A stretch of 64,000 nt of DNA from the NCBI RefSeq assembly GCF_900100925.1, contig NZ_FNKO01000001.1, positions 1,674,001 to 1,738,000 of the forward strand, written 5' to 3'. The stretch comes from Actinopolyspora saharensis (lineage in GTDB: Bacteria > Actinomycetota > Actinomycetes > Mycobacteriales > Pseudonocardiaceae). Positions 39,140 to 54,854 of the stretch are shown here, one piece after another (the first letter of the stretch is position 1; every line of letters starts with the position of its first letter). The notes below the pieces were generated by a model. The model was not told where the DNA came from, ran no database searches, and worked only from the letters and a program-made list of their open reading frames with translations. Made by a program: the position numbers and the translations under genes.

Positions 39140-40672
39140 ATGTCGCAGACCCACGGTCCGCCGAACGCCACGGCCTCCTCCACCGAGGCCGCCGCGACGG
39201 CGGAGACCCTGTACATCGACGGCGCGTGGCAGGCAGCCGCGGCGGGAGGAACCCGCGAGATCCGCTGCCCCGCCGACAGCTCCCCGGTAGCCACGGTCGC
39301 CGAGGGGGACCGTTCCGACGGTGAGCGGGCCATAGCGGCGGCGCGCGCGGCCTTCGACGAGGGAACGTGGCCGAGCACCTCCCCGTGGGAGCGCGGTGAC
39401 CTGCTGCTGCGCGTGAGCGACATCCTCGTGCGCGACCGCGAGGAGTTCGCCCGGGCCGAATCGCTGGACACCGGCAAGCGGCTGGTGGAGAGCGGCTACG
39501 ACATGGACGACATCGCAGCCTGCTTCCGGTACTACGGCAAGATCGCGGGCACCGACCCCGGCCACGTCGTCGACACCGGCTCGAACGACGCCATCAGCAG
39601 GGTCAGCTACGAGCCGGTCGGCGTCTGCGGCCTGATCACGCCGTGGAACTTCCCGCTGCTGCAGGTGGCCTGGAAGGTCGCTCCGGCCATCGCCGCGGGC
39701 AACACCTTCGTCCTCAAGCCCAGTGAACTCACCCCCAGCACGGCGATGCTGCTCATGCGCGCGCTGCACGAAGCCGGGCTGCCCGCCGGAGTCGGCAACC
39801 TGGTGCTGGGCAAGGGCTCCGAGGTCGGCGCGCTGCTGTCCGAGCACCCCGACGTCGACCTCGTCTCATTCACCGGCGGCCTGCACACCGGTCGTGCCAT
39901 CGCCGCCTCGGCGGCGGCCAACGTCAAGCGGGTGGCCCTCGAGCTCGGGGGCAAGAACCCGAACGTCGTCTTCGCCGATGCCGACTTCGAAACGGCGGTC
40001 GACTACGCGATGACGGCGATCTTCCTGCACTCCGGGCAGGTGTGCTCGGCCGGTGCGCGCCTGATCGTGCAGGACGAGATCCACGACGCGCTGGTCGACG
40101 AGATCGTGCGCCGGGCGCAGTCCATCAAGCTGGGCGGTCCCTTCGACGAGGAGGCCGAGACGGGACCGCTGATCTCCGCCGAGCACCGCGCCAAGGTCGA
40201 GGACTACGTGCGGCGTTCGATCGAGGAGGGCGCCGTGCTGCGCACCGGTGGACGTCGCCCGGAGGGCGAGCGGTTCGAGTCGGGCTACTTCTACCTGCCC
40301 ACCGTGCTCGACGAGGTCCAGCAGGGTTCCCAGGCCGTGGTCGAGGAGTCCTTCGGGCCGGTGCTGACCGTCGAGCGCTTCCGGGACGAGGACGACGCCG
40401 TGCGCATCGCCAACGACACGCACTACGGACTGGCGGGCGCCGTTTTCACCTCAGACGCGAGCAAGGCGCAACGTGTCGCGGGCAGGCTGCGCCACGGCAC
40501 TGTGTGGATCAACGACTTCCACCCGTACCTGCCCCAGGCCGAGTGGGGCGGCTTCAAGCAGTCCGGCATCGGGCGCGAGCTCGGTGGCGGCGGACTCCGC
40601 GAGTACCAGGAAGCCAAGCACGTCTACCAGAACCTGCGGCCCGAACCACAGCACTTGTTCGCCGCCGAGTGA
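39140..40672 (+). CDS. betB: Betaine aldehyde dehydrogenase
   Basis: NAD(P)-dependent aldehyde dehydrogenase of 510 residues converting betaine aldehyde to glycine betaine, a compatible solute. Signatures: TPWNFPLLQVAWK for cofactor binding, KPSELTP, SFTGGLHTGR, the general base Glu268 in ALELGGKNP, catalytic Cys302 in SGQVCSAG and ESFGPVLTV near the end. The gene is followed by betA after 156 bp and divergent from betI. BetB is the natural reading; other aldehyde substrates cannot be excluded. Confidence 0.88.
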   Translation: MSQTHGPPNATASSTEAAATAETLYIDGAWQAAAAGGTREIRCPADSSPVATVAEGDRSDGERAIAAARAAFDEGTWPSTSPWERGDLLLRVSDILVRDREEFARAESLDTGKRLVESGYDMDDIAACFRYYGKIAGTDPGHVVDTGSNDAISRVSYEPVGVCGLITPWNFPLLQVAWKVAPAIAAGNTFVLKPSELTPSTAMLLMRALHEAGLPAGVGNLVLGKGSEVGALLSEHPDVDLVSFTGGLHTGRAIAASAAANVKRVALELGGKNPNVVFADADFETAVDYAMTAIFLHSGQVCSAGARLIVQDEIHDALVDEIVRRAQSIKLGGPFDEEAETGPLISAEHRAKVEDYVRRSIEEGAVLRTGGRRPEGERFESGYFYLPTVLDEVQQGSQAVVEESFGPVLTVERFRDEDDAVRIANDTHYGLAGAVFTSDASKAQRVAGRLRHGTVWINDFHPYLPQAEWGGFKQSGIGRELGGGGLREYQEAKHVYQNLRPEPQHLFAAE

Positions 40673-40828
40673 GCCAACGACCGGGAACGAAGCCCGTCGT
40701 GCCGGGGTGATCGCCGCACTGGTCGGCCCGGCACGACATCCGGTTGTCCCACGGCGACGGTCCTCCGCGGTCCCGACTCCCCGCTCCCGGGGGATTCGTG
40801 CCGTCGTGAACAGAACAGGAGAACGACG

Positions 40829-42397
40829 ATGAGCGACGAGGCGACGACTTTCGACTACGTCGTGGTCGGTGGCGGCAGCGCCGGAGCCGCCCTGGCCGCG
40901 CGACTCTCGGAAGACCCCGACACCACCGTGTGCCTGCTGGAGGCGGGCCCGACCGACCAGGACAAGCGCGAGGTTCTCGAACTCAAGCAGTGGATGTCGC
41001 TGCTGGAGTCCGGCTTCGACTGGGACTACCTGATCGAGCCGCAGGAGCAGGGCAACTCCTTCATGCGCCACGCCCGCGCCAAGGTGCTCGGCGGTTGTTC
41101 CTCGCACAACTCCTGCATCGCCTTCTGGGCCCCGGCCGAGGACCTCGACGAGTGGGAGTCGCTGGGTGCCACGGGGTGGGGCTCGGACGATATCTTCCCG
41201 CTGTACCAGCGGCTGGAGAACAACGACGCCCCTGGTGAGCACCACGGCCGGAGCGGCCCCGTCCGGCTGCGCAGCGTGCCGCCGAACGATCCCTGCGGTG
41301 CCGCGCTGCTGCGGGCCTGCGAGGAGCAGGGCATCCCGATCACGGAGTTCAACTCGGGCAAGACCGTCACGCACGGTGCCAACTGGTTCCAGATCAACGC
41401 CTTCGAGGACGGGACCAGGGCCTCCTCCTCGGTGTCCTACCTGCACCCCGTCCTGGGCAGTCGCCCGAACCTGGAGGTGCGCACCGACACCCGGGCCAAG
41501 CAGGTGCTGTTCGAGGGCAACCGAGCCACGGGCGTGGAGTACCTCGCCCCGGACGGGCTGCGGAGCAAGCAGGTCAACGCCAGGCGGGAAGTCGTGCTCA
41601 GCTCCGGCGCGATCGACACGCCGAAGCTATTGATGCTGTCCGGCATCGGCCCGGCCGAGCACCTGCGCTCGGTGGGTGTGGACGTTCGCGTCGACTCCCC
41701 CGGTGTGGGCTCCAACCTGCAGGACCACCCCGAGGGGGTCATCGGCTGGGACGCGGCCAAGCCGATGGTCGAGGACTCCACCCAGTGGTGGGAGATCGGC
41801 ATCTTCACCACCACCGAGCCCGGGCTGGACCGCCCCGACCTGATGTTCCACTTCGGATCGGTCCCGTTCGACATGCACACCGTGCGGCAGGGGTACCCGA
41901 GCACCGAGAACGGCTTCTGCCTGACCCCGAACGTCACCCGCAGCCGCTCCGTGGGCACGGTTCGGTTGCGCAGCCGCGACTTCCGGGACAAACCCGCCGT
42001 CGATCCGCGCTACTTCACCGATCCGCACGACATCAGGGTGATGTCCCACGGCATCAAGCTCGCCCGTGAGATCGTGAGCAGGCCCGCCATGCGCGAGTGG
42101 GCCGGCGCCGAGCTCCACCCCGGTCCGGACGTGCAGTCCGACGACGAGATCGCGGACTACCTGCAGAAGACGCACAACACCGTGTACCACCCGGCCGCCT
42201 CCGTCCCGATGGGCGCGGCGGACGCCCCGAACGCCCCGCTGGACTCCCGGCTGCGCGTCAAGGGTGTGCACGGACTGCGAGTGGCGGACGGCTCGGCGAT
42301 GCCCTTCCTCGTCGCGGTGAACCCGAACATCACCACCATGGCCATCGGCGAGAAGTGCTCCGACATGCTCAAGGAGGACGCCGCGCAGAAATCCTGA
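40829..42397 (+). CDS. betA: Choline dehydrogenase (GMC oxidoreductase)
   Basis: FAD-dependent GMC oxidoreductase of 522 residues that oxidises choline to betaine aldehyde. The N-terminal FAD motif is YVVVGGGSAGAALAARL; GMC signature 1 lies around KVLGGCSSHNSCIAFW and signature 2 around SSGAIDTPKLLMLSGIGP. The C-terminus has the active-site YHPAASVPMG and NPNITTMAIGEK. It follows betB in the same direction, supporting the choline-glycine betaine pathway. The ATG at 40829 has AGGAGAA upstream. Confidence 0.88.
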   Translation: MSDEATTFDYVVVGGGSAGAALAARLSEDPDTTVCLLEAGPTDQDKREVLELKQWMSLLESGFDWDYLIEPQEQGNSFMRHARAKVLGGCSSHNSCIAFWAPAEDLDEWESLGATGWGSDDIFPLYQRLENNDAPGEHHGRSGPVRLRSVPPNDPCGAALLRACEEQGIPITEFNSGKTVTHGANWFQINAFEDGTRASSSVSYLHPVLGSRPNLEVRTDTRAKQVLFEGNRATGVEYLAPDGLRSKQVNARREVVLSSGAIDTPKLLMLSGIGPAEHLRSVGVDVRVDSPGVGSNLQDHPEGVIGWDAAKPMVEDSTQWWEIGIFTTTEPGLDRPDLMFHFGSVPFDMHTVRQGYPSTENGFCLTPNVTRSRSVGTVRLRSRDFRDKPAVDPRYFTDPHDIRVMSHGIKLAREIVSRPAMREWAGAELHPGPDVQSDDEIADYLQKTHNTVYHPAASVPMGAADAPNAPLDSRLRVKGVHGLRVADGSAMPFLVAVNPNITTMAIGEKCSDMLKEDAAQKS

Positions 42398-43434: not shown

Positions 43435-43458
43435 AGCATACCGCCCAGTCGGTATGCT
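43435..43458. promoter_or_regulatory. TetR-type operator, site 1 (HAD/APH/ACAD operon)
   Basis: Inverted repeat AGCATACCG-N6-CGGTATGCT. Its core ACCGCC-CA-GTCGGT (43440-43453) matches ACCGAC-N2-GTCGGT with one mismatch. It ends 8 bp before the HAD ATG, so binding would block expression. Related cores occur at 48122, 48893 and 52245. Confidence 0.78.
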
Positions 43459-43466
43459 GCCTCGCC

Positions 43467-44129
43467 ATGAGGAGGGAGCCCACTGTCGACGCCGTGGTGT
43501 TCGACTACGGCGGCGTGCTGACCGTCCCCGGCAGGCAGGCGGTCGAGTCCTGGACGCGCGCGGAGGGCATCCGCCCGGAGAGCTTCTCGGCACTGCTGCG
43601 GGAGTGGGTGGGCAGCGAGGCCGCCGCGGACACGCCGCTGCACCGACTGGAGACCGGCCTGCTGCCCGTCGAGGAGTTCAATCACCTGCTGGCCGCACGA
43701 CTGCACCCCAACCACGAGGAGGGTCGGATCGAGCCCGCGGGCCTGCTGCAGCGACTCTTCTCGTTCATGCACCAGGACGAGGAGACGCTGCGCCTGGTCA
43801 CGAAGCTGCGCGGAGCCGGCCTGCGCACTGCTCTGCTGTCCAACAGCTGGGGCAACACCTATCCGTGGGAGCAGTTGGAGGGACTGTTCGAGCACGCTGT
43901 CGTCTCGGGTTCGGTGGGGCTGCGCAAGCCCGATCCGGAAATCTACCGACTCCTCCTGGACCGAATGGACCTGCTCCCCGAGAACACCGCGTTCGTCGAC
44001 GACGTCCGGGCGAACGTGACGGCGGCACGACGGCTGGGGATGCGCACCGTCCTGCACCGGGACGCGGCGCGCACCGAGCAGGAGCTGCGCGAACTCCTCG
44101 GCGACCTCGACAAGCACGACCGGAGGTAG
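43467..44129 (+). CDS. HAD-superfamily hydrolase (subfamily IA)
   Basis: HAD phosphatase-like protein of 220 residues. Motif I is VVFDYGGVL (nucleophile Asp, but the second Asp of DxD is Gly, as in the haloacid dehalogenase/epoxide hydrolase-associated type), motif II TALLSNSW, motif III SVGLRKPDPEIY, motif IV FVDDVRAN. It belongs to the HAD group encoded next to APH-like kinases and acyl-CoA dehydrogenases. It is the first gene behind operator site 1. The next gene starts 5 bp after its stop. Confidence 0.88.
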   Translation: MRREPTVDAVVFDYGGVLTVPGRQAVESWTRAEGIRPESFSALLREWVGSEAAADTPLHRLETGLLPVEEFNHLLAARLHPNHEEGRIEPAGLLQRLFSFMHQDEETLRLVTKLRGAGLRTALLSNSWGNTYPWEQLEGLFEHAVVSGSVGLRKPDPEIYRLLLDRMDLLPENTAFVDDVRANVTAARRLGMRTVLHRDAARTEQELRELLGDLDKHDRR

Positions 44130-44134
44130 TAGCG

Positions 44135-45175
44135 ATGCCGGAAGACACCGCCGAAGGACCACCCCCCGGGTTCGACCCGACGAGCCTGCGGACCTACCTG
44201 GAGACCGAACGTCCGGATCTGTGCCGGGGAGAACTGCGCGCCGAGCTCATCCAGGGCGGACGCTCCAATCTCACCTACCGGGTGACGGACGGCAACGGCA
44301 GCTGGGTGTTGCGTCGCCCGCCTCTCGGGCACGTTCTCGCGACCGCGCACGACATGAGCAGGGAATACCGCGTCATGTCCGCGCTCGCCGACACCGCGGT
44401 TCCCGTCCCCCGGACCCATCTGCTGTGCTCGGACGAGAACGTGCTCGGAGCTCCCTTCTACGTCATGGACTTCGTCGAGGGGCACGTCTACCGCTCGCGA
44501 CAGCAGGTCGAGCGACTGAGCGAACCGCAGCGCCGTGACCTGTCGCTGCGCATGATCGAGGTGCTCGCACGGCTGCACTCCGTCGACCCGGATGCGGTGG
44601 GGCTCTCCGACTTCGGCCGCCCGGAGGGCTTCCTCGAACGGCAGGTCCGCCGCTGGAGCAAGCAGCTCGAGTCCTCGCTGGACCGGGAAATACCGGGCAT
44701 CTCCGAACTGCGGGACCGTCTCGCGAGCACGATCCCCGCGGGTGGGCGCACCACGATCGTGCACGGCGACTACCGGCTGGACAACGTGCTGGTCGACGAC
44801 GACGGACGGATCCGTGCCGTTCTGGACTGGGAGATGGCCACCCTCGGCGATCCCCTCACCGACCTCGGACTGCTGGTCGTCTACTGGGAAGGGTTCAGCG
44901 GCATCCGGAACAACCCGATCGCCAAGGGGGTCGGACCGGAATTCGGTTTCCCCACGGCGCGGGAGCTGCTCCAGCACTACGCGGAACACAGCGGTACGGA
45001 CGTGTCCGAGCTGGACTGGTACGTCGCGTTCGGCTTCTTCAAGATAGCGGTGATCCTCGAGGGGATCCACTACCGCTACACCCGGGGGAAGACCGTCGGT
45101 GAGGGTTTCGAGCACGTCGGTTCCATGGTCGAACCGCTGGTGCGCCAGGGACTTGCCAAGATCAGGGAGGACTAG
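44135..45175 (+). CDS. APH-like phosphotransferase of the ACAD10/11 type
   Basis: Protein-kinase-fold phosphotransferase of 346 residues. It contains the nucleotide-binding LIQGGRSNLTYRV, the Brenner motif IVHGDYRLDNVLV and the metal-binding LDWEMATLGDPLTDL. In mammalian ACAD10/11 the same three parts (HAD, APH-like kinase, acyl-CoA dehydrogenase) are fused and act on 4-hydroxy fatty acids by phosphorylation and elimination; here they are separate adjacent genes. The stop is followed directly by the ATG of the dehydrogenase with no gap. ATG 44135 has GGAGG upstream. Confidence 0.9.
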   Translation: MPEDTAEGPPPGFDPTSLRTYLETERPDLCRGELRAELIQGGRSNLTYRVTDGNGSWVLRRPPLGHVLATAHDMSREYRVMSALADTAVPVPRTHLLCSDENVLGAPFYVMDFVEGHVYRSRQQVERLSEPQRRDLSLRMIEVLARLHSVDPDAVGLSDFGRPEGFLERQVRRWSKQLESSLDREIPGISELRDRLASTIPAGGRTTIVHGDYRLDNVLVDDDGRIRAVLDWEMATLGDPLTDLGLLVVYWEGFSGIRNNPIAKGVGPEFGFPTARELLQHYAEHSGTDVSELDWYVAFGFFKIAVILEGIHYRYTRGKTVGEGFEHVGSMVEPLVRQGLAKIRED

Positions 45176-46381
45176 ATGGACTTCGCCTTCGACGAACGAA
45201 CCGAGAGCATGCGTTCGGAGCTCGAGTCCTTCATGGACGAGCACGTGCTGCCCTCCGAGGAGGAGTTCGAACGCCAGGCCGCCTCCTCCGCGCCCTGGGA
45301 GGTCCCCGGGATCGTGGAGGAGCTCAAGCGCGAGGCGCGCTCCAGGGGACTGTGGAACCTCTTCCTGCCCGGTGAGCACGGAGCCGGGCTCACCAACCTG
45401 CAGTACGCCCCCCTCGCCGAGATCACCGGGCGCAGCCCCCACCTGGCCCCGCCCGCGCTGAACTGCGCGGCACCTGACACGGGCAACATGGAAGTGCTTT
45501 CCATGTTCGGCGACGAACGGCAGCGCGAGCAGTGGCTCACCCCCCTGCTGAACGGGGAGATCCGTTCCGCCTTCTGCATGACCGAACCGGACGTCGCCTC
45601 CTCGGACGCCACGAACATAGCGACCCGCATTCGCCGCGAGGGCGACGAGTACGTCATCACCGGACGCAAGTGGTGGTCCTCCGGGGCGATGAATCCGAAC
45701 TGTCGGATCCTGATCGTCATGGGCAAGACCGACCCGGAGGCCGAGCGGCACCGTCAGCAGAGCATGGTGCTCGTCCCGGTGGACGCCCCCGGCGTCGACA
45801 TCCGCCGCGGCATGAGCGTGTTCGGCTACTCCGACGGCGACCACGGGGGACACGCCGAGATCGACTTCAACGAGGTCCGGGTGCCTGCCGCCAACATCAT
45901 CTCCGGCGAGGGCGAGGGCTTCACCATCGCGCAGGCACGACTCGGTCCCGGTCGGATACACCACTGCATGCGGGCCATCGGCATGGCCGAACGCGCGCTG
46001 GAGCTCATGTGCAGGCGGGTCGTCGACCGGGAGGCCTTCGGCAGGCCGCTCGCCGACCAGGGCACGGTCCAGCACTGGATCGCCGACGCCCGGGTGCGGA
46101 TCGAGTCGGTGCGCCAGTTGGTGCTCAAGACTGCCTGGTTGATGGACACGGTGGGCAACCGCGGAGCGCACACCGAGATCCAGGCCATCAAGGTCTCGGT
46201 CCCCGAGATGGCGACCACGGTGATCGACCGGGCCATTCAGGCGCACGGCGGCGCGGGGGTCAGCCAGGACACTCCGCTCGCCAATCTGTACGCCCACGCG
46301 CGGACCCTGCACATCGTGGACGGGCCCGACGAGGTTCACCGCCGGTCGCTGGCCCGCCGCGAGCTGTCGAAGCACCGGTGA
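45176..46381 (+). CDS. Acyl-CoA dehydrogenase (ACAD10/11-like)
   Basis: FAD-dependent acyl-CoA dehydrogenase of 401 residues. Signature 1 is [16 protein letters not shown], followed by [11 protein letters not shown]; signature 2 spans [22 protein letters not shown] and the end [13 protein letters not shown]. The N-terminal helical domain is full length. Its position after the HAD and APH-like genes, with zero spacing to the latter, matches the ACAD10/11 functional set. It would introduce a double bond after phosphate removal, or act on an enoyl intermediate. Substrate chain length is not predictable. Confidence 0.92.
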
Positions 46382-46476
46382 GGGGCGCACGCCCGCAGCC
46401 GGTGGGAACGGACACGGCACCCCCGGTCAACGGGGGAGAACGCCCGTGACAAGCACCGAACCAGGAAGGTGAGCAC

Positions 46477-46929
46477 ATGCCCGTATTCGCCAACGCGGAG
46501 CAGTTGTACTCGGCTCGGGGAACGAAGCTGGGCACCAGCCAGTGGTGGACGGTCACGCAGCGGATGATCGACCAGTTCGCCGAGGCGACCGGAGATCACC
46601 AGTGGATCCACGTCGACGCGCAGCGGGCGGCAGCGGGGCCGTTCGGGACCACCATCGCCCACGGTTTCCTGACGCTGAGCATGGTCAGCGCGCTCAACGC
46701 GCAGATATACGGTTTCGAGGGTGCGCGCATGGTGATCAACTACGGGTTGAACAAGGTGCGCTTCCCCACCCCGGTTCAGGTGGACAGCAGGGTGCGCGCC
46801 GGCTCCGAGCTGGCCGACGTGGCGGAGAGCGGTGAAGCGCTGCAGCTGACCCTGAACACCACTGTGGAGATCGAGGGCTCGGACAAGCCCGCCTGCGTGG
46901 CCGAGGTCCTCTCCCGAGTGGTGTTCTGA
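46477..46929 (+). CDS. MaoC-family (R)-enoyl-CoA hydratase
   Basis: Hot-dog-fold hydratase of 150 residues with hydratase-2 motif: FAEATGDHQWIHVD (catalytic Asp/His) and the overhang motif ending TTIAHGFLTLSMVS. It adds water to trans-2-enoyl-CoA. Located 95 bp downstream of the acyl-CoA dehydrogenase in the same direction, it most likely acts next in the pathway. ATG 46477 with GGAAGG upstream. Confidence 0.92.
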   Translation: MPVFANAEQLYSARGTKLGTSQWWTVTQRMIDQFAEATGDHQWIHVDAQRAAAGPFGTTIAHGFLTLSMVSALNAQIYGFEGARMVINYGLNKVRFPTPVQVDSRVRAGSELADVAESGEALQLTLNTTVEIEGSDKPACVAEVLSRVVF

Positions 46930-46941
46930 CCGCGGCTCGCG

Positions 46942-46993
46942 CGCGGAAGCGCCCACTCCGGTCGGAGTCACGACCGGGGTGGCCGCTTCCGCG
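46942..46993. terminator. Long hairpin between convergent genes
   Basis: CGCGGAAGCG...CCGGTC / GACCGG...CGCTTCCGCG: a stem of about 22 bp with small mismatches between the convergent MaoC and quinone oxidoreductase genes. No T run is present, so it is a putative factor-independent or processing signal. Confidence 0.65.
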
Positions 46994-47060
46994 TTCGTCG
47001 CCCGCCCCGCGGAGATACCGGGCGGGTTCCGCGCGGACCGGGCGGGCGACCTCTCGAAGA

Positions 47061-48047
47061 TCACGTGCCGGTGTAAACCACCCGTCCCACGGTGTGCCCG
47101 TCGGCGACCCGCTGCGCGGCCGCGGGCAGTTCCTCGAGCCCGACCCGCTCGCTGACCAGCGGGGCGATCTCTCCGGCCGTTGCCATACGAGTCAGGTCCT
47201 CGTGGGCCTCACGCACCGCACGTGGATCCCGCTCGTTGTACAGCCCCCAGTGCAATCCCACGATCGAGTAATTCTTGATCAGGGCGTGGTTCAGCGCCGG
47301 TGTCGGGATGTCCCCACTGGCGAACCCGATCACCAGGATGCGCCCCTCGAAGGCGACGCACTTGGTCGACCGGCTGTAGGTGTCCCCGCCGACCGGGTCG
47401 TAGACCACATCGGCTCCCCTGCCTCCGGTGGTTTCCTTGACCACGCTGACGAAGTCCTCGGTGTGCCGGTCCACGACCACGTGGGCGCCCAGTTCACGGG
47501 CCACCTCGGCCTTCTCCCGGCCACCGGCCACGCCGATCACGGTGGCGCCCGCGGCCCTGCCGAGCTGTATCGCCGCACTGCCCACCCCGCCGGAGGCGGC
47601 GTGCACGAGCAGCGTCTCCCCGGAGCGCAGTCCGGCTCGCCGGTGCAGCCCGAACCAACCGGTCTGGTACCCGATGAACAGGGAAGCCGCCGCGGCGTCG
47701 TCGAGGGCCTCCGGGGCGTGGAAGGTCCGCCCGGCGTCCATCAGGGCGTACTCCGCGAACCCTCCGTCGGGCACCGCGCCCGCCCCGATCACTCTGTCCC
47801 CGTGCGCCAGCCCGATCACCCCGGATCCCACAGCGACCACCTCACCGCACAGCTCGACGCCCGGCGTGAACGGCGGATCTGGCTTGACCTGGTACTTTCC
47901 CCGGCACATCAGCACATCGGGAAAGTTCACCGGACTCGCCGCCACACGCACGGCGACCTGTTCGGGCCCCGGTTCGGGGAGCTCGGTCCGGGCGAGCTCG
48001 AGCACTTCGTACGGCTTGCCCAGTTCGGTGACTCGCAATGCCCGCAC
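47061..48047 (-). CDS. Zinc-independent quinone oxidoreductase / MDR family
   Basis: NADPH-dependent medium-chain dehydrogenase of about 328 residues. It has PVNFPDVLMCRGKYQVKP and FTPGVELCGEVVAVG in the catalytic domain, the Rossmann stretch LLVHAASGGVGSAAIQLGRAAG, and VYDPVGGD. The Cys and His metal ligands of zinc alcohol dehydrogenases are missing. GTG 48047 is chosen because GGAGGTGT lies just upstream. An 18-bp operator is 72 bp upstream. Members of this group can act as enoyl-CoA or quinone reductases; the regulon suggests acyl-CoA metabolism. Confidence 0.88.
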   Translation of the reverse strand: MRALRVTELGKPYEVLELARTELPEPGPEQVAVRVAASPVNFPDVLMCRGKYQVKPDPPFTPGVELCGEVVAVGSGVIGLAHGDRVIGAGAVPDGGFAEYALMDAGRTFHAPEALDDAAAASLFIGYQTGWFGLHRRAGLRSGETLLVHAASGGVGSAAIQLGRAAGATVIGVAGGREKAEVARELGAHVVVDRHTEDFVSVVKETTGGRGADVVYDPVGGDTYSRSTKCVAFEGRILVIGFASGDIPTPALNHALIKNYSIVGLHWGLYNERDPRAVREAHEDLTRMATAGEIAPLVSERVGLEELPAAAQRVADGHTVGRVVYTGT

Positions 48048-48119
48048 AGCACACCTCCGTACTCCCTCGCTCCGCGATGCACGACTCCGCGTGGAGGGAC
48101 ACAACTGCCGCAATTGGCT

Positions 48120-48137
48120 ATACCGACTAGTCGGTAT
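48120..48137. promoter_or_regulatory. TetR-type operator, site 2 (quinone oxidoreductase)
   Basis: Exact 18-bp palindrome ATACCGACTAGTCGGTAT. Core ACCGAC-TA-GTCGGT at 48122-48135. It lies upstream of the quinone oxidoreductase GTG (48047) and downstream of the TetR gene stop (48200). Confidence 0.85.
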
Positions 48138-48199
48138 GCTAGTGGCTCCGCATCGCGCTGTACACCCGCGAGAAGCGTCCGCGAGCTCGCGCCTCCGAC

Positions 48200-48850
48200 T
48201 CACCCGGAGGAGTCCGGCCGCAGCGAGTCCAGCAGCAGGTCCGCGAACTGCTCACCCACCTGCTGACCGCTCATCGGACCGTCCCTGCGGTACCAGAATC
48301 CGAGGTGGTGCACCGCCCCGAAGAAGAAGTCGACCACGAGCTCGGCCGAGCGATCGCTCCGGAACGCCCCCGTCGACTGCCCCTCCTCGATCAGCCGACG
48401 CACGCGCTCGTGGTAGTGCCGTCGCTGCGCGCGCACCTCGGCCTGCTTGTCCGGATGCAGCAGGTGCATGGAGCGGAAGAAGATCACCGTGTCGTCCAGG
48501 TGCGTGACAGTGGTGACCACGACGTCGACCGCCACGGCCCGCAAGCGCTGCTGGATCGATTCCGCACTGTCGACGGCTCGCTCCATCCGGGCGGTCTGCA
48601 CCCGCAGAATCCGCGCGTAGATCTCGTAGAGCAGATCGTCCTTGGCGCCGAAGTAGTGGTACATGGCCCCCTTGGTCACTCCGGCGGCGTCCACGATCTC
48701 CTGAACGGAGGTGGTCTCGAACCCCCTCTCGGCGAACAGCCGCGTGGCAGCCGTCAACAACCGCTGCGGCACCGGTTCCTGCTCCGCCTCGCTCTCCGAA
48801 ACCTGCGCGGCGGGATCCTCCGCCCCACCGATGGATGATCCCGGCGCCAT
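48200..48850 (-). CDS. TetR-family regulator of the acyl-CoA regulon
   Basis: TetR protein of 216 residues: HTH LLTAATRLFAERGFETTSVQEIV, then AGVTKGAMYHYFGAKDDLLYEI, and a ligand-binding domain ending VVDFFFGAVHHLGFWYRRDG. The organisation resembles KstR2/FadR-like acyl-CoA-responsive repressors. ATG at 48850 has GGAGGAAAG directly upstream. A copy of the palindromic core lies 43 bp upstream of the ATG, and the same core sits before three other nearby transcription units, so it probably represses them and itself. Confidence 0.9.
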   Translation of the reverse strand: MAPGSSIGGAEDPAAQVSESEAEQEPVPQRLLTAATRLFAERGFETTSVQEIVDAAGVTKGAMYHYFGAKDDLLYEIYARILRVQTARMERAVDSAESIQQRLRAVAVDVVVTTVTHLDDTVIFFRSMHLLHPDKQAEVRAQRRHYHERVRRLIEEGQSTGAFRSDRSAELVVDFFFGAVHHLGFWYRRDGPMSGQQVGEQFADLLLDSLRPDSSG

Positions 48851-48892
48851 CTTTCCTCCCCGTTCCTCGGACCGGTCGAACTCCTCCAGAGT

Positions 48893-48906
48893 ACCGACCG
48901 GTCGGT
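48893..48906. promoter_or_regulatory. TetR-type operator, site 3 (tetR autoregulation)
   Basis: Exact palindrome ACCGACCGGTCGGT, i.e. ACCGAC-CG-GTCGGT, 43-56 bp upstream of the tetR ATG. A second smaller palindrome ACCGGCCGGT lies at 48920-48929. Confidence 0.82.
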
Positions 48907-48971
48907 CCTCCACCGACCGACCGGCCGGTGCCCACCGGCGTGTCCGTGCTCCCCTCATTCGGGGGACGTCC

Positions 48972-49778
48972 CTAACCGTGCTGCTCGACCTGCCGCCGCA
49001 GCGAGCTCATCCCGGCGAGCCAACGGTCCGGATCGGCCGCACGCCGCGCGTAGCGCTCCGCGACCTCGGGGTGGGGCAGTATCAGGAAGTCACCGCCGAG
49101 GGACTCGGCGACCACCTCCGCGACGTAACCGGGTTCCAGCGCGTCCTGCGCCAGCAATCGCTGCCCGGTCTCCCCGCTTCCCGCCAGCATCCCGGTGCGC
49201 ACCCCCTGCGGGCACAGCGCCTGCGCGGTGACCCCCCTGTCGCCGTAGGTCACCGCGAGCCACTCGGCGAACCCCAGAGCCGCGTGCTTGGTCACCGAGT
49301 AGGGCGCGGCCCCGAGCATGGTCAGCAAGCCGGCCGCCGACACCGTGGCCAGGAAGTGCCCACCGCCCGTCTCCAGCCAGTGCGGCAGCACGGCACGAGC
49401 CGCACGCACGTGCGCCATCACGTTGAGCTGCCAGGCGTGGTCCCAGTCCTCCTCGGAGGCCTCCGGACCACCTGCCGTGGCGACCCCGGCATTGGCGCAG
49501 AACAGATCTATGCGCTCGTGCTCGCCCAGGGCCCTGGACACGAGCTCCCGAGCTCCCGCATCACCCGCGGCGTCCCCCGCTGCGGCGGTCCCACCGATCT
49601 CCGCAGCCACGCTCTCGGCGGCGGAGGCGTCGACGTCGTTGACCACCACGAGCGCTCCCCGCGCCGCGAACTCACGACTCATGGCCGCGCCTATGCCGTT
49701 GCCCGCTCCGGTCACCACCGCCACGGAGCCGTCGAGCCGCACACCGGCAACACCGTTCTCCCGTTCCGTGCCGACCAC
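48972..49778 (-). CDS. SDR-family oxidoreductase
   Basis: Short-chain dehydrogenase of 268 residues. Cofactor motif TGAGNGIG, then VVVNDVDAS, FCANAGVAT (NAG), and the active site S plus Y-x3-K in YSVTK. The C-terminal 60 residues are longer than in FabG, as in SDRs acting on larger acyl or steroid substrates. GTG at 49778; 6-bp gap from the upstream SDR gene, so both probably share a transcript starting at the acyl-CoA ligase. Confidence 0.9.
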   Translation of the reverse strand: MVGTERENGVAGVRLDGSVAVVTGAGNGIGAAMSREFAARGALVVVNDVDASAAESVAAEIGGTAAAGDAAGDAGARELVSRALGEHERIDLFCANAGVATAGGPEASEEDWDHAWQLNVMAHVRAARAVLPHWLETGGGHFLATVSAAGLLTMLGAAPYSVTKHAALGFAEWLAVTYGDRGVTAQALCPQGVRTGMLAGSGETGQRLLAQDALEPGYVAEVVAESLGGDFLILPHPEVAERYARRAADPDRWLAGMSSLRRQVEQHG

Positions 49779-49784
49779 CGCGAA

Positions 49785-50540
49785 TCACATCCCACCGGTG
49801 AGCGTCACTCCGCCGTCCAGAGTCAGGATCTGGCCGGTCACCCAGCAGGCCTCGTCGGAGAGCAGGTAGGCGGCCGCACCCGCCACGTCGGAGGGCACGC
49901 CGAGCCTGCGCATCGGGTACTGCCCCGCCAGCTCCTCCTCGTTGTTCTCGTACAGCGCGGTGGCGAACTGCGTCTTGACCACGGCGGGTGCGACTCCGTT
50001 CACCCGCACGCCGGGCCCCAGCTCGACCGCGAGCTCACGGGTCATGTGACTCAGCATCGCCTTGGTCGCACCGTAGTAGCCGATGCCCGGCGCGGGGTCC
50101 GAACCGGCCACCGAGGACACGTTGAGCACGGAACCACCGTGCTCGGCCATCCACTCCCGGTGGACCAGCTGGGTCCACGCCAACGCGCCCAGGACGTTGA
50201 CCTCGAAGGTCTTGCGGGCGACCCCGTGGTCGAGCTCGATCAACGGGCCGTAGGCCGGGTTGATGCCGGTGTTGTTGACCAGCACGTCGATCCGCCCGAA
50301 GGCCTCCAGGGTGCGCGACACCGTCTCGGCCTGGTGCTCACCGTCGTCGGCCTTGCCCGCGACCGCGATCGCGTGCTCGGGACCACCGAGCTCGCGGACG
50401 GCCTCCTCCAGGGCGTCGCTCTTGCGGGCCGTGAGGCACACCCGTGCCCCCTCCTCCACGAGGCGCTGGGCTATGCCGAACCCGATCCCCCGGCTGGAGC
50501 CGGTAACGATCGCCACGCGACCGTCGAAGCGCTTGCTCAT
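49785..50540 (-). CDS. SDR-family oxidoreductase (FabG-like)
   Basis: Classical SDR of 251 residues. It has VTGSSRGIGFGIAQ, VLVNNTGINP (NNAG-like), SVLNVSSVAG with the catalytic Ser, YYGATKAML with Y-x3-K, and the conserved VNGVAPAVVKT. Family members reduce 3-oxoacyl-CoA or oxidise the hydroxy compound. It follows the acyl-CoA ligase after 22 bp, consistent with stepwise oxidation of an activated acid. ATG at 50540. Confidence 0.92.
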   Translation of the reverse strand: MSKRFDGRVAIVTGSSRGIGFGIAQRLVEEGARVCLTARKSDALEEAVRELGGPEHAIAVAGKADDGEHQAETVSRTLEAFGRIDVLVNNTGINPAYGPLIELDHGVARKTFEVNVLGALAWTQLVHREWMAEHGGSVLNVSSVAGSDPAPGIGYYGATKAMLSHMTRELAVELGPGVRVNGVAPAVVKTQFATALYENNEEELAGQYPMRRLGVPSDVAGAAAYLLSDEACWVTGQILTLDGGVTLTGGM

Positions 50541-50562
50541 CGACTTCCTTCCGTCGTCGTGC

Positions 50563-52227
50563 TCACTCGTCGCTGGCCTCCTCCCGAAGACGGCGCCGCA
50601 GGATCTTGCCCGTTGCGGTCTTCGGGAGCTCGTCGACGAGCACTATCTCCCGCGGGTACTTGTACGCCGCCAGCTGCTGCTTGCAGTGCTGCGTCAGTTC
50701 GGCCTCGGTGGCGCGCCCACCGGAGACGAGACTGACGTAGGCCTTGACCGTTTCGCCCCTGTAGGCGTCGGGGGCCCCGACCACGGCCACCTCCCGCACA
50801 GCGGGGTGGCCGTAGAGCACGTCCTCCACCTCGCGCGGCCACACCTTGAACCCGGAGGCGTTGATCATGTCCTTCTTCCGGTCGACGACGTAGAACCAAC
50901 CGCCCTCGTCCATGAACCCGACGTCACCGGTGCGCAGCCGGCCCCGCGGAATTCCCTCCTCCGTCCGCTCCGGACTGTTCCAGTAGGCCGGTACCACCAT
51001 CGGCCCTTCGACGACGATCTCCCCGGTCGAACCGACGGGCAGGTCCCGCCCGTCGTCGTCGACCACGCGCAGCACGCAGTTGAAGGTCGGGATCCCGACG
51101 CTGATCGTGCCGGTCGCCTCATCCACGGGAGCTTCGAGGTGCGGCGGGACCGAGGTCGCGGTCGCCGTCGTCTCGGTGAGCCCGTAGCCGTTGCGGATGT
51201 AGAGCCCGAAGCGGGAGCGGAACCGCTCCACCAGCGCCGCGGGCAGCGGAGCTCCTCCCGAGTACACCTGCTCGAAGGAGGCGAAGTCCTCGGCCGAGGC
51301 GCTCGGGTGATCCAGCAGGGCGACGTAGGCCGTCGAGGGCCCGATCATGTACTGCGGTCGCCGTCGCCGCAGCACTTCGAGCACCGTGTCCGGTTCGAAC
51401 CGGTACAGCAGGTCCAGCCTGCCGCCCAGGGCGAGCACCGCTCCCAGCTGGCAGACCAACCCCGTTATGTGGAACAGCGGTGCCAGCGCGACGATGCCTC
51501 CCCCCACGGCGTCGGCCCGTTGCGTGAACGCCTGGGCGTTGAAGCTGATGTTGCGGTGCGTGTTCGTCGCGCCCTTCGGCGCCCCTCCCGTGCCGGAGGT
51601 GTAGGTGAGCAGGGCGACGTCGTCCGGGTGCAGGCGTGCGCGCTGGGGCTCGCTCCCCTCGCGGGCCCGCACCGTCTCCACGAGGTCGTCGGTTTCCTCC
51701 GGGCGCCTGCGCGCTGAGTTCCGCAGCGGCGCGGCGGTGCCGCTGCCCGCGAAGTCGAGTTCGCTGGTGGTGAGCACGACGGGCACGCTGCGCTCCGCCA
51801 GGACGGCAGCGAGCACGTCGTGCCAGCCGTCCTCCGAGGAAACGATCGCGGCGGGCTGGGCGTCGGCGAGGATGGTGGTCAGCTCGTGGCTGCGATACAT
51901 CGGGTTCAGCGGTACGACGATGGCCCCGATCTTCCAGCTCGCGAGCAGCGCTATCCCGAACTGCGGAATGTTCTGCAGGTAGAGCGCCACCCGGTCCCCG
52001 CCGCCGACTCCGCGCTCGGCGAGGTGCGCGGCCAGCGCGTCGGCGAGTCCGTCCAGTTCGCGATAGCTGATCTCGGTGTCGAAGTAGGTGAGGGCGACGC
52101 TCTCCGGGAAGCGCTCGCACGTGTCCTCCAGCACGGAGATCATGTCCCCGTACCGGGGAGTTATGTCCCCCGGCTCGCCCTCGGCGTAGCGAGCCAGCCA
52201 CGGACGCTCGTCGTAGACACCGGACAT
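50563..52227 (-). CDS. Acyl-CoA synthetase (AMP-forming)
   Basis: ANL-superfamily ligase of 554 residues that activates a carboxylate to acyl-AMP and acyl-CoA. Motifs: P-loop-like LLTYTSGTGGAPKGA, GYGLTETTA, LRTGDVGFMDEGG and the C-terminal hinge and catalytic Lys in LPKTATGKILRR. The ATG at 52227 is chosen with GGAGGT seven bases upstream; GTG 52233 would be too close to it. It heads a three-gene unit with two SDRs. A TetR-type operator lies 18 bp upstream of the start. Confidence 0.93.
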   Translation of the reverse strand: MSGVYDERPWLARYAEGEPGDITPRYGDMISVLEDTCERFPESVALTYFDTEISYRELDGLADALAAHLAERGVGGGDRVALYLQNIPQFGIALLASWKIGAIVVPLNPMYRSHELTTILADAQPAAIVSSEDGWHDVLAAVLAERSVPVVLTTSELDFAGSGTAAPLRNSARRRPEETDDLVETVRAREGSEPQRARLHPDDVALLTYTSGTGGAPKGATNTHRNISFNAQAFTQRADAVGGGIVALAPLFHITGLVCQLGAVLALGGRLDLLYRFEPDTVLEVLRRRRPQYMIGPSTAYVALLDHPSASAEDFASFEQVYSGGAPLPAALVERFRSRFGLYIRNGYGLTETTATATSVPPHLEAPVDEATGTISVGIPTFNCVLRVVDDDGRDLPVGSTGEIVVEGPMVVPAYWNSPERTEEGIPRGRLRTGDVGFMDEGGWFYVVDRKKDMINASGFKVWPREVEDVLYGHPAVREVAVVGAPDAYRGETVKAYVSLVSGGRATEAELTQHCKQQLAAYKYPREIVLVDELPKTATGKILRRRLREEASDE

Positions 52228-52244
52228 CGACACACCTCCGCGAG

Positions 52245-52258
52245 ACCGACCAGTCGGT
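52245..52258. promoter_or_regulatory. TetR-type operator, site 4 (acyl-CoA synthetase operon)
   Basis: ACCGAC-CA-GTCGGT inverted repeat, 18 bp upstream of the ligase ATG and just ahead of its ribosome site. Same core as sites 1-3. Confidence 0.82.
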
Positions 52259-52335
52259 ACGGACAGTCAACTGATTCGACCGGCGGTCGTCAACCCGTGC
52301 GATGGCCAAAACACGTCGATCTCTTGACCACCCAA

Positions 52336-52351
52336 ACTGGTCTAGTCCAGT
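52336..52351. promoter_or_regulatory. DasR-like operator (dre site)
   Basis: ACTGGTCTAGTCCAGT matches the palindromic DasR box ACTGGTCTAGACCAGT at 15 of 16 bases. It is embedded in a longer inverted repeat CCAAACTGG-N6-CCAGTTTGG (52332-52355), 35 bp before the chitinase ATG and just after a TTGACC hexamer at 52324. Confidence 0.85.
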
Positions 52352-52385
52352 TTGGGGGATTCGAAAAGCGATCACGGAGGTATCG

Positions 52386-53414
52386 ATGCGCATTCGCCGA
52401 ATCACGGCCGCCCTGGCGGTGGCCGCCTTCCCGCTGGCGTTCGCCACGGCGCCGGCAACAGCGGCCACCAGTTCCGAGCACGAGTCCCCCGAGAGCACGG
52501 AGCTCGGGAGCTCCGCCCTCCCCGAACACCAGCTCACCGGTTACTGGCAGAACTTCGTCAACGACGCCGAACCGTTACGCGTGAGCGACGTTCCCGCCGA
52601 TTACGACCTGGTCGCGCTCGCGTTCGCCCAGAACGACCCGGCACGCCCCGGAGCCGTCCGGTTCAACGTGGACTCCGGACTCTCGAACGCCCTCGGCGGT
52701 TACACCGACGCCCAGCTCAAGTCGGACATCGCGGCCAAGAAGGCCCAAGGCACTGATTTCGTGATGTCGATAGGCGGCGCCAAGGGCTCGGTCGACCTGA
52801 GCACCGAGCAACGCGTGAACAACTTCGTGGACTCGATGACCGGAATCATCGAGGAGTACGGCCTGGACGGGCTGGACATCGACCTGGAAAGCAACTTCGA
52901 CGCGGCCGGGATGACCAGCGCGGCCAGGCAGCTGCGTCAGCACTTCGGGCAGGACTTCATCCTGACCATGGCCCCGCAGACGCTGTACGTGCAGCAGGAC
53001 GGGTCGTACATGCCGCTGATCAACAACCTCAGCGACATCATCACCGTGGTGCACACCCAGTACTACAACTCCGGCTCCATGTTCGGCTGCGCGGGCGAAG
53101 TACGCAGCCAGGGCTCCGTCGACTTCATCACCGCCCAGGCCTGCAACCTGCTGGACGTGCTGCGCGCGGACCAGGTCTCGCTCGGACTGCCCGCCTCCCC
53201 CTCCGCGGCGGGGAGCGGGTACGTCGATCCCTCCGTGGTCACCGACGCGCTGGACTGCCTGGCGGCGCGGACCAACTGCGGCGACTTCGTCCCCGACCAG
53301 GCCCACCCCTCCGTCAGCGGAGTCATGACCTGGTCGATCAACTGGGACGTCAGCAACGGCCGCGACTTCTCCCGGACCGTGGCCGATCACCTGGACACCC
53401 TGCCGAGCAGCTGA
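52386..53414 (+). CDS. Secreted GH18 chitinase
   Basis: Exported family 18 chitinase of 342 residues. The signal peptide has basic RIRR, a hydrophobic ALAVAAFPLAFATAP core and an ATAA cleavage region. The catalytic sequence is LDGLDIDLESN (DxxDxDxE); also FVMSIGGAKG, MAPQTLY, VHTQYYNSG and VMTWSINWD. It should release chitooligosaccharides from chitin. The dre-like box in front implies control by DasR, the GlcN6P-sensing repressor of chitin genes. The ATG at 52386 has GGAGGT upstream. Confidence 0.92.
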   Translation: MRIRRITAALAVAAFPLAFATAPATAATSSEHESPESTELGSSALPEHQLTGYWQNFVNDAEPLRVSDVPADYDLVALAFAQNDPARPGAVRFNVDSGLSNALGGYTDAQLKSDIAAKKAQGTDFVMSIGGAKGSVDLSTEQRVNNFVDSMTGIIEEYGLDGLDIDLESNFDAAGMTSAARQLRQHFGQDFILTMAPQTLYVQQDGSYMPLINNLSDIITVVHTQYYNSGSMFGCAGEVRSQGSVDFITAQACNLLDVLRADQVSLGLPASPSAAGSGYVDPSVVTDALDCLAARTNCGDFVPDQAHPSVSGVMTWSINWDVSNGRDFSRTVADHLDTLPSS

Positions 53415-53588: not shown

Positions 53589-54173
53589 ATGACAGTCGCG
53601 CTGGAGACCGTGCTGGCGCGGGCCGGCTTGAAGGTGACCGCGCACGAGTTCCTCACGCTGGTCGAGGACGCGGCCAAACGGCTCACCCCCGCCCAGGCCG
53701 ACCCCGGCGCGCACTTCGACGAGTCCGAGCGGGCCGCGCTGACCGAGACGGGGCTGGACCTGAGTCCGCTCGGCGAGGAGGAGACCGACCCCAGAGCGCG
53801 CTCCGTCGCGGAGCAGACGGTACTGCGCGACACGGCGCTCTCGGTGGGGCAGGCCGCCGAACGCGTCGGCGTGGACGGCAGCCGCATCCGGCACCGCGTG
53901 GCCTCGCGCAGGTTGATCGGGTGGAAGGACCGCGGAGGATGGCGGCTTCCCGCCTGGCAGTTCACCGACGACGACGTGCTGCCCGGCCTGGAAACCGTGC
54001 TGGCCGCGATGCCGAGCGACCAGCCCGCTCTGGTTCTGGCCAATTTCATGACGACCCCCCAGGAGGACCTGGAATTGGGAGACCGGCCCGTGAGTCCGCG
54101 GGAATGGCTGATGGCCTACGGCGATCCTCGGCGCGTGGCCGAGCTCGCCTCGGTCATCGGAACCCCCGCGTAG
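53589..54173 (+). CDS. Putative antitoxin-like DNA-binding partner of a RES protein
   Basis: Protein of 194 residues of unfamiliar family. The central part (about 95-125) reads ALSVGQAAERVGVDGSRIRH, then RLIGWKDRGGWRLPAWQF, an excisionase/MerR-like helix-turn-helix with a winged turn. The C-terminal part (PREWLMAYGDPRRVAELA) resembles the end of the DUF2384/MbcA antitoxins, where a similar domain binds the RES toxin. The RES gene starts 24 bp downstream. Role as antitoxin is inferred from this pairing. Confidence 0.75.
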   Translation: MTVALETVLARAGLKVTAHEFLTLVEDAAKRLTPAQADPGAHFDESERAALTETGLDLSPLGEEETDPRARSVAEQTVLRDTALSVGQAAERVGVDGSRIRHRVASRRLIGWKDRGGWRLPAWQFTDDDVLPGLETVLAAMPSDQPALVLANFMTTPQEDLELGDRPVSPREWLMAYGDPRRVAELASVIGTPA

Positions 54174-54197
54174 TCGTCGACGAACACAGGACCGCAG

Positions 54198-54854
54198 ATG
54201 GCCCGGCTCCCCCAGCCACCAACTCCCGCCGCGCTGCAGGCCGTGCTCCGGCGGACCGAGGACGTCGTAGCGCTTCCCGCCGGGACCAGACTCGTCAGGG
54301 TCTTCACCTCCGGTGGCAACCATCCCCAGCAGTGGGACAGCTTTCGCTACGCCGGACCGCTCCCGCACGCGCGATTCGACCCGCACCCGCCCACCCCGCA
54401 GGGCGGTCCCGCGGTGACCAGGGAGCACGGCGTGCTGTACTTCTCCCTCTCCGTGCGCACGTGCATAGCCGAAGTCTTCCAGGCGACTTCCACTGTGGAC
54501 CGCAAAACGCGCGCTCCGCAGCTGGTGATCTTCCGGCCGCGCCGCACGGTGCGGCTGCTGGACCTGTCCGGGCTCTGGCCCACTAGGGCAGGCGCTTCCC
54601 AGGCGATCAGCAACGGCACGAAGGAGCGCACCCAGGCCTGGGCACGTTGCATCCGGGCCGCCCACCCCGAGCTGGACGGTCTCTGGTACCGCTCCTCCAT
54701 GGACGCCGGGCACCCCTCGGTGTGCTTGTGGGATCCCCCCGCCGGAACGGTGCTGCCCGATACCCCGGACCTGCTGCTCCCGCTCGAGAATCCCGGCCTC
54801 GATCTTCCGCTCGGCCGGGTGTGCAAGGAGCTCAGCTACACGATGCTCAGCTGA
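54198..54854 (+). CDS. RES-domain protein (putative NAD-degrading toxin)
   Basis: Protein of 218 residues with the RES fold: LPAGTRLVRVF with the conserved Arg, a FRYAGP motif, HGVLYFSLSVRTCIAEVFQ with the conserved Tyr and Glu, and DGLWYRSSMDAG with the conserved Ser pair. RES toxins such as MbcT phosphorolyse or hydrolyse NAD. Together with the preceding DNA-binding gene it makes a RES-type pair. Start ATG 54198. Missing residues cannot be judged without a structural alignment. Confidence 0.82.
   Translation: MARLPQPPTPAALQAVLRRTEDVVALPAGTRLVRVFTSGGNHPQQWDSFRYAGPLPHARFDPHPPTPQGGPAVTREHGVLYFSLSVRTCIAEVFQATSTVDRKTRAPQLVIFRPRRTVRLLDLSGLWPTRAGASQAISNGTKERTQAWARCIRAAHPELDGLWYRSSMDAGHPSVCLWDPPAGTVLPDTPDLLLPLENPGLDLPLGRVCKELSYTMLS

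Follow-up and report, generated by a model that had tools for sequence, protein, structure and literature searches.

A window of 64,000 nucleotides (the whole stretch of DNA analyzed) from contig NZ_FNKO01000001.1 of Actinopolyspora saharensis, whose genome comprises 4.68 Mb in two contigs, carries a nine-gene cluster with a TetR-family repressor gene in its midst and four inverted repeats ACCGAC-N2-GTCGGT in front of its genes. We read the cluster as part of a TetR-controlled regulon of the PaaR/PfmR class for the breakdown of 4-oxo and 4-hydroxy acids by enzymes of the ACAD10/ACAD11 type, and from the sequence data we give this reading a probability of about 0.68. The sites, their conservation, the gene content and the diagnostic residues of the enzymes together make a regulon of 4-hydroxyacyl-coenzyme A (CoA) genes probable. 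The operator-like sites, in window positions, are as follows.

43440..43453, plus strand: operator O1, ACCGCCCAGTCGGT, one mismatch, with extended arms CAGCATACCG/CGGTATGCTG, before HAD-APH-ACAD-MaoC
48122..48135, minus strand: operator O2, ACCGACTAGTCGGT, between tetR and the quinone oxidoreductase gene
48893..48906, minus strand: operator O3, ACCGACCGGTCGGT, before tetR
48916..48929, minus strand: possible secondary operator, ACCGACCGGCCGGT, one mismatch, starting 23 bp from O3
52245..52258, minus strand: operator O4, ACCGACTGGTCGGT on the minus strand, before the genes for the ligase and two short-chain dehydrogenases (ligase-SDR2-SDR1)

A motif scan of the window found the exact repeat at 48122, 48893 and 52245 and a one-mismatch copy, ACCGCCCAGTCGGT, at 43440, which confirms the four 6-2-6 sites of a preliminary description of this DNA. 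The same description had placed all four within 75 bp of a start codon, and with starts chosen by their ribosome-binding sites (for HAD, the first ATG) the gaps were indeed 13 bp for HAD (ATG 43467), 74 bp for the quinone oxidoreductase (GTG 48047 behind GGAGG), 42 bp for tetR (ATG 48850 behind GGGGAGG) and 17 bp for the ligase (ATG 52227 behind GGAGG). The position of O3 upstream of tetR suggests autoregulation of the repressor gene. O4 is preceded by TTGACT in this genome and in several relatives. The additional one-mismatch copy at 48916, absent from the earlier list, is not conserved: nine other genomes of the genus had no match to it with up to one mismatch, and the two closest relatives had two mismatches. 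Beside the ligase operator, on the opposite strand, starts a gene for a secreted-looking glycosyl hydrolase family 18 protein (52330-53414), and upstream of it lies CCCAAACTGGTCTAGTCCAGTTTGGG, which we take to resemble the DasR operators of chitinase genes.

Across the genome the exact motif occurred at five places, against one for the reversed pattern, and three of the five fell inside 4,137 bp, a clustering for which P is about 2e-5 if five places are drawn at random. Genome-wide frequency was the point that the preliminary description had singled out for checking. With up to one mismatch allowed, 71 places were found against 30 for the control, so that a one-mismatch site alone proves little and O1 requires independent support. 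At up to two mismatches the window held 15 matches where 8.06 were expected, a number reached in 1 of 100 shuffles; because this is only a mild enrichment, we gave weight only to exact and conserved sites and discarded the two-mismatch sites of the window (43178, 48934 and others) as near chance level.

We then compared the surroundings of TetR matches, up to 20 kb each, from 34 places in 32 genomes. The same gene set in the same relative order was present in all nine other Actinopolyspora genomes examined, and all nine kept the exact sites before the ligase, tetR and quinone oxidoreductase genes as well as the one-mismatch site before HAD, which bears out the proposal of a multi-operator regulon around the encoded TetR. 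Nine genus genomes each held five exact motifs with a pyrimidine-purine center and the tenth held six, 51 in all, versus 1 for the reversed control.

For O1, the best site was sought from 300 bp upstream to 60 bp inside the HAD start, in 20 rows that include duplicate genomes. It had one mismatch in 18 rows, representing 12 distinct upstream sequences, and two mismatches in the other 2; a single negative distance, apparently due to the edge of a locus, was disregarded. The changed base in the 18 rows always fell on one symmetric position, namely base A5 in the left half-site or, in the rows of Actinopolyspora mortivallis (L041 and L085), its mirror. Within the genus the outer arms CAGCATACCG/CGGTATGCTG extend the palindrome, with small changes. 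Since the site is conserved and its arms lengthen the palindrome, O1 is credible, and it looks like a conserved, slightly weakened operator. It overlaps a -10-like hexamer, TATGCT (43453-43458), which ends 8 bp before ATG 43467; with this hexamer so near the ATG and no ribosome-binding site visible before it, the HAD transcript is probably leaderless.

Beyond the genus we used the best 80 of 462 TetR relatives, with a reach of up to 8 kb on either side, from Saccharopolyspora, Amycolatopsis, Microbispora, Planotetraspora and other genera, and nine gene types (HAD, APH, ACAD, MaoC, quinone oxidoreductase, tetR, SDR1, SDR2 and ligase); the resulting counts are not independent, as the loci were picked by TetR similarity, many are close relatives and some genomes were entered twice. 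The exact motif was found 103 times in 78 of the 80 loci, always with a pyrimidine-purine center, and 99 of the 103 sites lay between 350 bp upstream and 30 bp inside the estimated start of a gene belonging to these nine types, with six types represented. With seven control palindromes or variants, the combined yield was 2 sites. An exact site preceded the ligase in 34 of 37 loci, the quinone oxidoreductase in 8 of 10, SDR2 in 7 of 37 and ACAD in 1 of 63. The sites traveled with their genes despite changed gene order (exact in 48 of 51 ligase rows and 21 of 24 quinone oxidoreductase rows, duplicate genomes included), and in genome G030 a HAD-APH pair about 2.25 Mb away from tetR still had an exact site. 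In other genera SDR1 and SDR2 diverge from a common site, exact in L063 and L188 (G026:C2:285185) and with one mismatch in L064.

The genes of the cluster and their predicted products are listed here.

43467..44129, plus strand: HAD protein, FDYGG, in which the second catalytic Asp of DxD is Gly
44129..45175, plus strand: APH-fold kinase, HGDYRLDN, a relative of LvaA and the ACAD11 kinase domain and a candidate 4-hydroxyacyl-CoA kinase
45176..46381, plus strand: ACAD10/11-type acyl-CoA dehydrogenase, catalytic Asp in VDGPDEVH, predicted to eliminate phosphate from 4-phosphoacyl-CoA
46477..46929, plus strand: MaoC-type enoyl-CoA hydratase
47061..48047, minus strand: MDR quinone oxidoreductase, PIG3-like, under that family's cut-off
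48200..48850, minus strand: TetR-family repressor, TetR_C_24 domain, start behind GGGGAGG
48972..49778, minus strand: short-chain dehydrogenase SDR1
49785..50540, minus strand: short-chain dehydrogenase SDR2
50563..52227, minus strand: acyl-CoA ligase, start ATG 52227 behind GGAGG

The acyl-CoA dehydrogenase scored 484 bits to ACAD11 (8v3u) and 448 bits to 4hr3, versus 156 bits to the best chain outside that group. For ACAD11, PMC12440821 names D753 as catalytic and suggests that R626, H634 and R637 may take part in recognizing the phosphoacyl group. VDGPDEVH of the window enzyme aligns to ADGPDEVH of 8v3u, in which the chain numbering is one lower at all four residues, and the stretch with R626, H634 and R637 is identical in the two; chain 8v3v has Asn at the position of the catalytic Asp, as in the inactive variant described in that paper. 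Among 78 distinct dehydrogenases with at least 60% identity, the one from the window included, the catalytic Asp and the R/H/R residues were kept in all, and the R/H/R stretch was identical in 77, with one C-to-A change. The best chains for the kinase were 9o56, 3dxp and ACAD11, at 185 to 227 bits, followed by one at 53 bits, and by these scores it is closer to ACAD11 than to the drug-modifying kinases. Its HGD motif was present in 66 of 66 distinct sequences, and a plasmid search gave 279 records, all under 60% identity. The kinship of the kinase/dehydrogenase pair with ACAD10/11, already suggested by the preliminary description, thus holds by diagnostic residues and nearest chains, which give good grounds for assigning the chemistry to this type.

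All 15 distinct sequences of the HAD protein had D-x-G. In ACAD10 the HAD domain keeps one Asp only, and PMC11342911 attributes to it negligible phosphatase activity (from data its authors did not show) and a restraining effect on the kinase; the window protein is probably likewise a non-catalytic partner of the kinase. For the two SDRs, MaoC and the quinone oxidoreductase, roles are inferred from family. Among the NCBIfam matches shown for the ligase, SDR1, SDR2 and MaoC, one subfamily model (for SDR2) was above its cut-off. PHROGs yielded nothing useful.

The nearest solved chains for the TetR were 3dcf, 3vpr (second, at a low 88 bits) and KstR2; chain 3vpr we take to be PfmR. None of 22 listed NCBIfam models was above its cut-off. 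The helix GVTKGAMYHYF, part of which served as a search pattern, was kept in 92 of 98 distinct TetRs and resembles that of 3vpr. There were 26 TetR-type matches in the genome, and the best paralog was 28% identical to the window TetR. The motif itself is already known from a repressor class assigned to a different pathway. According to PMC2770484, the operator of PaaR from Burkholderia cenocepacia, demonstrated by mutation, is the same 14-mer, ACCGAC-N2-GTCGGT. PaaR, also a TetR repressor, has ACCGACCGGTCGGT as its operator between promoter elements; the likeness is one of operators, with binding by the window TetR being predicted. PaaR targets phenylacetate catabolism, whereas the sites here precede genes for a ligase, SDRs, a HAD protein, a candidate 4-hydroxyacyl-CoA kinase and an ACAD10/11-type dehydrogenase. 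A review has PaaR released by a CoA thioester of the pathway (compound II), and lists a Thermus reference whose title gives phenylacetyl-CoA as effector (PMC9493321). In Thermus thermophilus HB8, PfmR (TTHB023) has a consensus, TACCGACCGNTNGGTN, that resembles the window operator; the targets of PfmR are phenylacetate and fatty acid genes (PMC7022988).

We rejected filing the cluster as an Lva operon: it would work like one, but it lacks the contiguous lvaEDABC set, is divided into several transcription units and includes additional genes and a TetR. In Pseudomonas putida, which uses this operon for levulinate, the regulator LvaR is a sigma-54-type activator. As described in PMC12440821 and PMC11342911, the Lva operon shares with the window a ligase, a kinase (LvaA) and an acyl-CoA dehydrogenase (LvaC) acting via 4-phosphoacyl-CoA; it differs in having LvaR as regulator and, according to PMC12440821, no HAD homolog. 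The window cluster instead has a TetR with dispersed operators, extra SDRs, MaoC and a quinone oxidoreductase. Mammalian ACAD10 and ACAD11 (8v3u) have in common with it the partnership of kinase and dehydrogenase, the catalytic Asp, the R/H/R residues and, in ACAD10, the one-Asp HAD, but these are domains of one protein in mammals (PMC12440821, PMC11342911), whereas they are separate genes here. Among the matches listed from the open-licence literature there was no prior report of a TetR regulon of 4-hydroxyacyl-CoA genes, and the pairing of this repressor class with an ACAD10/11-type pathway seems to be new, as do two remote features described below, the conserved operator of the reductase gene and the possible intragenic one.

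Outside the cluster, a reductase gene has the exact site C2:920538 about 75 bp upstream of its first ATG, and somewhat farther from an alternative GTG. The product has ADH_N_2 and ADH_zinc_N domains and its nearest chains are double-bond reductases (best 7e4d, 359 bits), by which it is a 2-alkenal/double-bond reductase of the PTGR type. An ortholog with an exact upstream site was present in all ten genus genomes and in G014; the best reductase matches in G021, G022 and G034 and a second-copy paralog (L083) had no site at one mismatch. With this conserved operator the regulon extends past the window, and the preliminary description, which had called it self-contained and compact, does not hold on this point, although the conserved regulon around the TetR and the ACAD10/11 kinship that it proposed do. 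A remote operon may add another member.

L174 778-5483: remote ligase-SDR-ACAD operon with its own divergent TetR (TetR_C_1) gene and an intragenic ACCGACCAGTCGGT site

Here the exact site, at C1:1853457, lies within the 3' part of the acyl-CoA ligase gene, which is followed by SDR and ACAD genes. It was exact, with five identical codons, in ten of ten genus genomes (by eye, about five groups of near-identical local sequence), while the flanking residues and the length varied; the ligase orthologs in G014, G022 and G026 had different residues and no site. We initially read it as a mere coding coincidence and dropped this given the 10/10 conservation, the identical codons and the otherwise variable loop. 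In a codon test the five invariant codons stood in a row, yet the same gene had three more runs of five or six. As a sixth operator, the site is suggestive. A close homolog of the remote SDR occurs in a TetR/APH/ACAD neighborhood in seven genomes chosen for showing it, by which the remote operon is linked to the same pathway; in a whole-genome search this homolog was the best match in six of the seven and second in G036, and it adjoins MaoC in six of the seven (not in G052).

Several results weigh against the reading as a TetR regulon of 4-hydroxyacyl-CoA genes. In the 80 loci an exact site preceded tetR in only 27 of 80 and APH in 22 of 53 (in these 22, MaoC lies directly beyond the site), and none was found before MaoC (0 of 46), SDR1 (0 of 37) or HAD (0 of 6), so that autoregulation of tetR and control of the kinase via exact sites are not universal; HAD itself was present in just 6 of 80. 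Outside the genus, the ratio of motif to control was 41:20 in 16 genomes with a close TetR ortholog and 41:18 in 35 without one (Fisher P 0.85). Because the excess is independent of the ortholog, the motif there probably serves other regulators too, and we argue TetR specificity from the loci only, as genome-wide counts did not separate the groups. That the motif fails to mark this ortholog outside the genus may be due to a DNA specificity of a known class. Of 36 exact places in 11 genomes of the family, 19 were examined and 7 had none of 12 queried genes nearby. On the side of the enzymes, there is no thiolase among the nine cluster genes, and the sequences do not decide which SDR, if any, would reduce a 4-oxo group.

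We propose the following mechanism, with the order of reactions taken from the Lva and ACAD10/11 papers. The TetR (48200-48850) would belong to the PaaR/PfmR specificity class, repress its own gene and bind ACCGAC-YR-GTCGGT at the four cluster sites, at a remote one and probably at a second remote one. Since the operators coincide in part with likely core promoters or directly adjoin them, binding would block transcription. We infer this binding and repression, together with the inducer and the assignment of the SDR steps. An acyl-CoA is a reasonable candidate for the inducer; most likely, a 4-hydroxyacyl- or 4-oxoacyl-CoA derived from the substrate by the co-regulated ligase would free the TetR. 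The induced enzymes would then feed 4-oxo and 4-hydroxy (possibly 2-ene) acids into beta-oxidation: the ligase would form the CoA thioester, an SDR would reduce the 4-oxo to the 4-hydroxy group, the APH kinase would phosphorylate O4, the ACAD10/11-type enzyme would eliminate the phosphate to give 2-enoyl-CoA, and MaoC would hydrate this before oxidation by the second SDR. The HAD protein, lacking the second catalytic Asp, may tune the kinase, like the HAD domain of ACAD10.

It is conceivable, if rather unlikely, that the operators are real and serve another pathway, the TetR being a relative of PaaR/PfmR in control of phenylacetate, branched-chain or general fatty acid breakdown and the kinase and dehydrogenase acting on a hydroxy- or phospho-acyl-CoA of another kind. 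The motif matches that of PaaR (PMC2770484) and is like that of PfmR, named for phenylacetate and fatty acids (PMC7022988), and the ligase, SDRs and MaoC are generic, the lone NCBIfam subfamily model above cut-off being that of SDR2. Yet the five exact sites comprise three in the cluster, one in a ligase gene and one at a double-bond reductase, none of them at a recognized paa gene (paa genes were not searched for), and the dehydrogenase and kinase have the residues and relatives of ACAD10/11. That a different TetR paralog of the same class binds the sites, the encoded TetR being a mere neighbor, appears improbable: the 26 TetR-type matches, the sharing of the motif by several TetR regulators and the failure of its excess to track this ortholog outside the genus speak for it, but the sites stay with the neighborhood of this TetR through rearrangements, the best paralog is just 28% identical, and the 3vpr-like helix GVTKGAMYHYF recurs in 92 of 98 distinct sequences, if partly as a search pattern. 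Chance palindromes of a GC-rich genome are scarcely credible as an explanation. The enrichment in the window at up to two mismatches is mild (15 versus 8) and one-mismatch sites are common (71 versus 30), but the exact sites number just 5 in 4.68 Mb, lie clustered (P about 2e-5) and are kept at promoters across genera, and conservation at the same promoters in nine of nine other genus genomes contradicts chance.

Two further alternatives concern the function of the genes. The HAD protein could be an active phosphatase of the pathway that removes the 4-phosphate instead of a regulatory partner, as HAD hydrolase models above the Pfam cut-off and matches to soluble epoxide hydrolase N-domains would allow; we consider this unlikely given D-x-G for D-x-D in all 15 distinct sequences and the negligible phosphatase activity and kinase restraint of the one-Asp HAD of ACAD10 (PMC11342911). 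More speculatively, and doubtful to us, the regulon may be a response to 4-hydroxy-2-alkenals and related lipid-peroxidation products, combining the reductase, the quinone oxidoreductase, the CoA ligases and the kinase-ACAD pair, with a TetR that senses 4-hydroxy- or 4-phosphoacyl-CoA, an intragenic operator in the remote ligase gene and an operator of deliberately reduced strength at the promoter of the kinase.

Elsewhere in the window, an aldehyde dehydrogenase gene followed by a GMC oxidoreductase gene (39140-42397) has the layout of choline-to-betaine genes, expected in a halophile. At 53589-54854, a 194-amino-acid protein without a Pfam match precedes a RES-domain protein (67 bits), in a layout like that of a RES-type toxin-antitoxin pair.

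The regulon of 4-hydroxyacyl-CoA genes proposed here provides a candidate regulator and operator for the bacterial counterpart of ACAD10/ACAD11 in Pseudonocardiaceae and some relatives, and a route to the physiological substrate by identifying the ligand that releases the repressor. The free-standing one-Asp HAD, co-encoded with the kinase, lets the proposed control of kinase by HAD be studied on separate proteins. The remote operator at the alkenal reductase gene would tie the catabolism of 4-hydroxy acids to enal and enone reduction.

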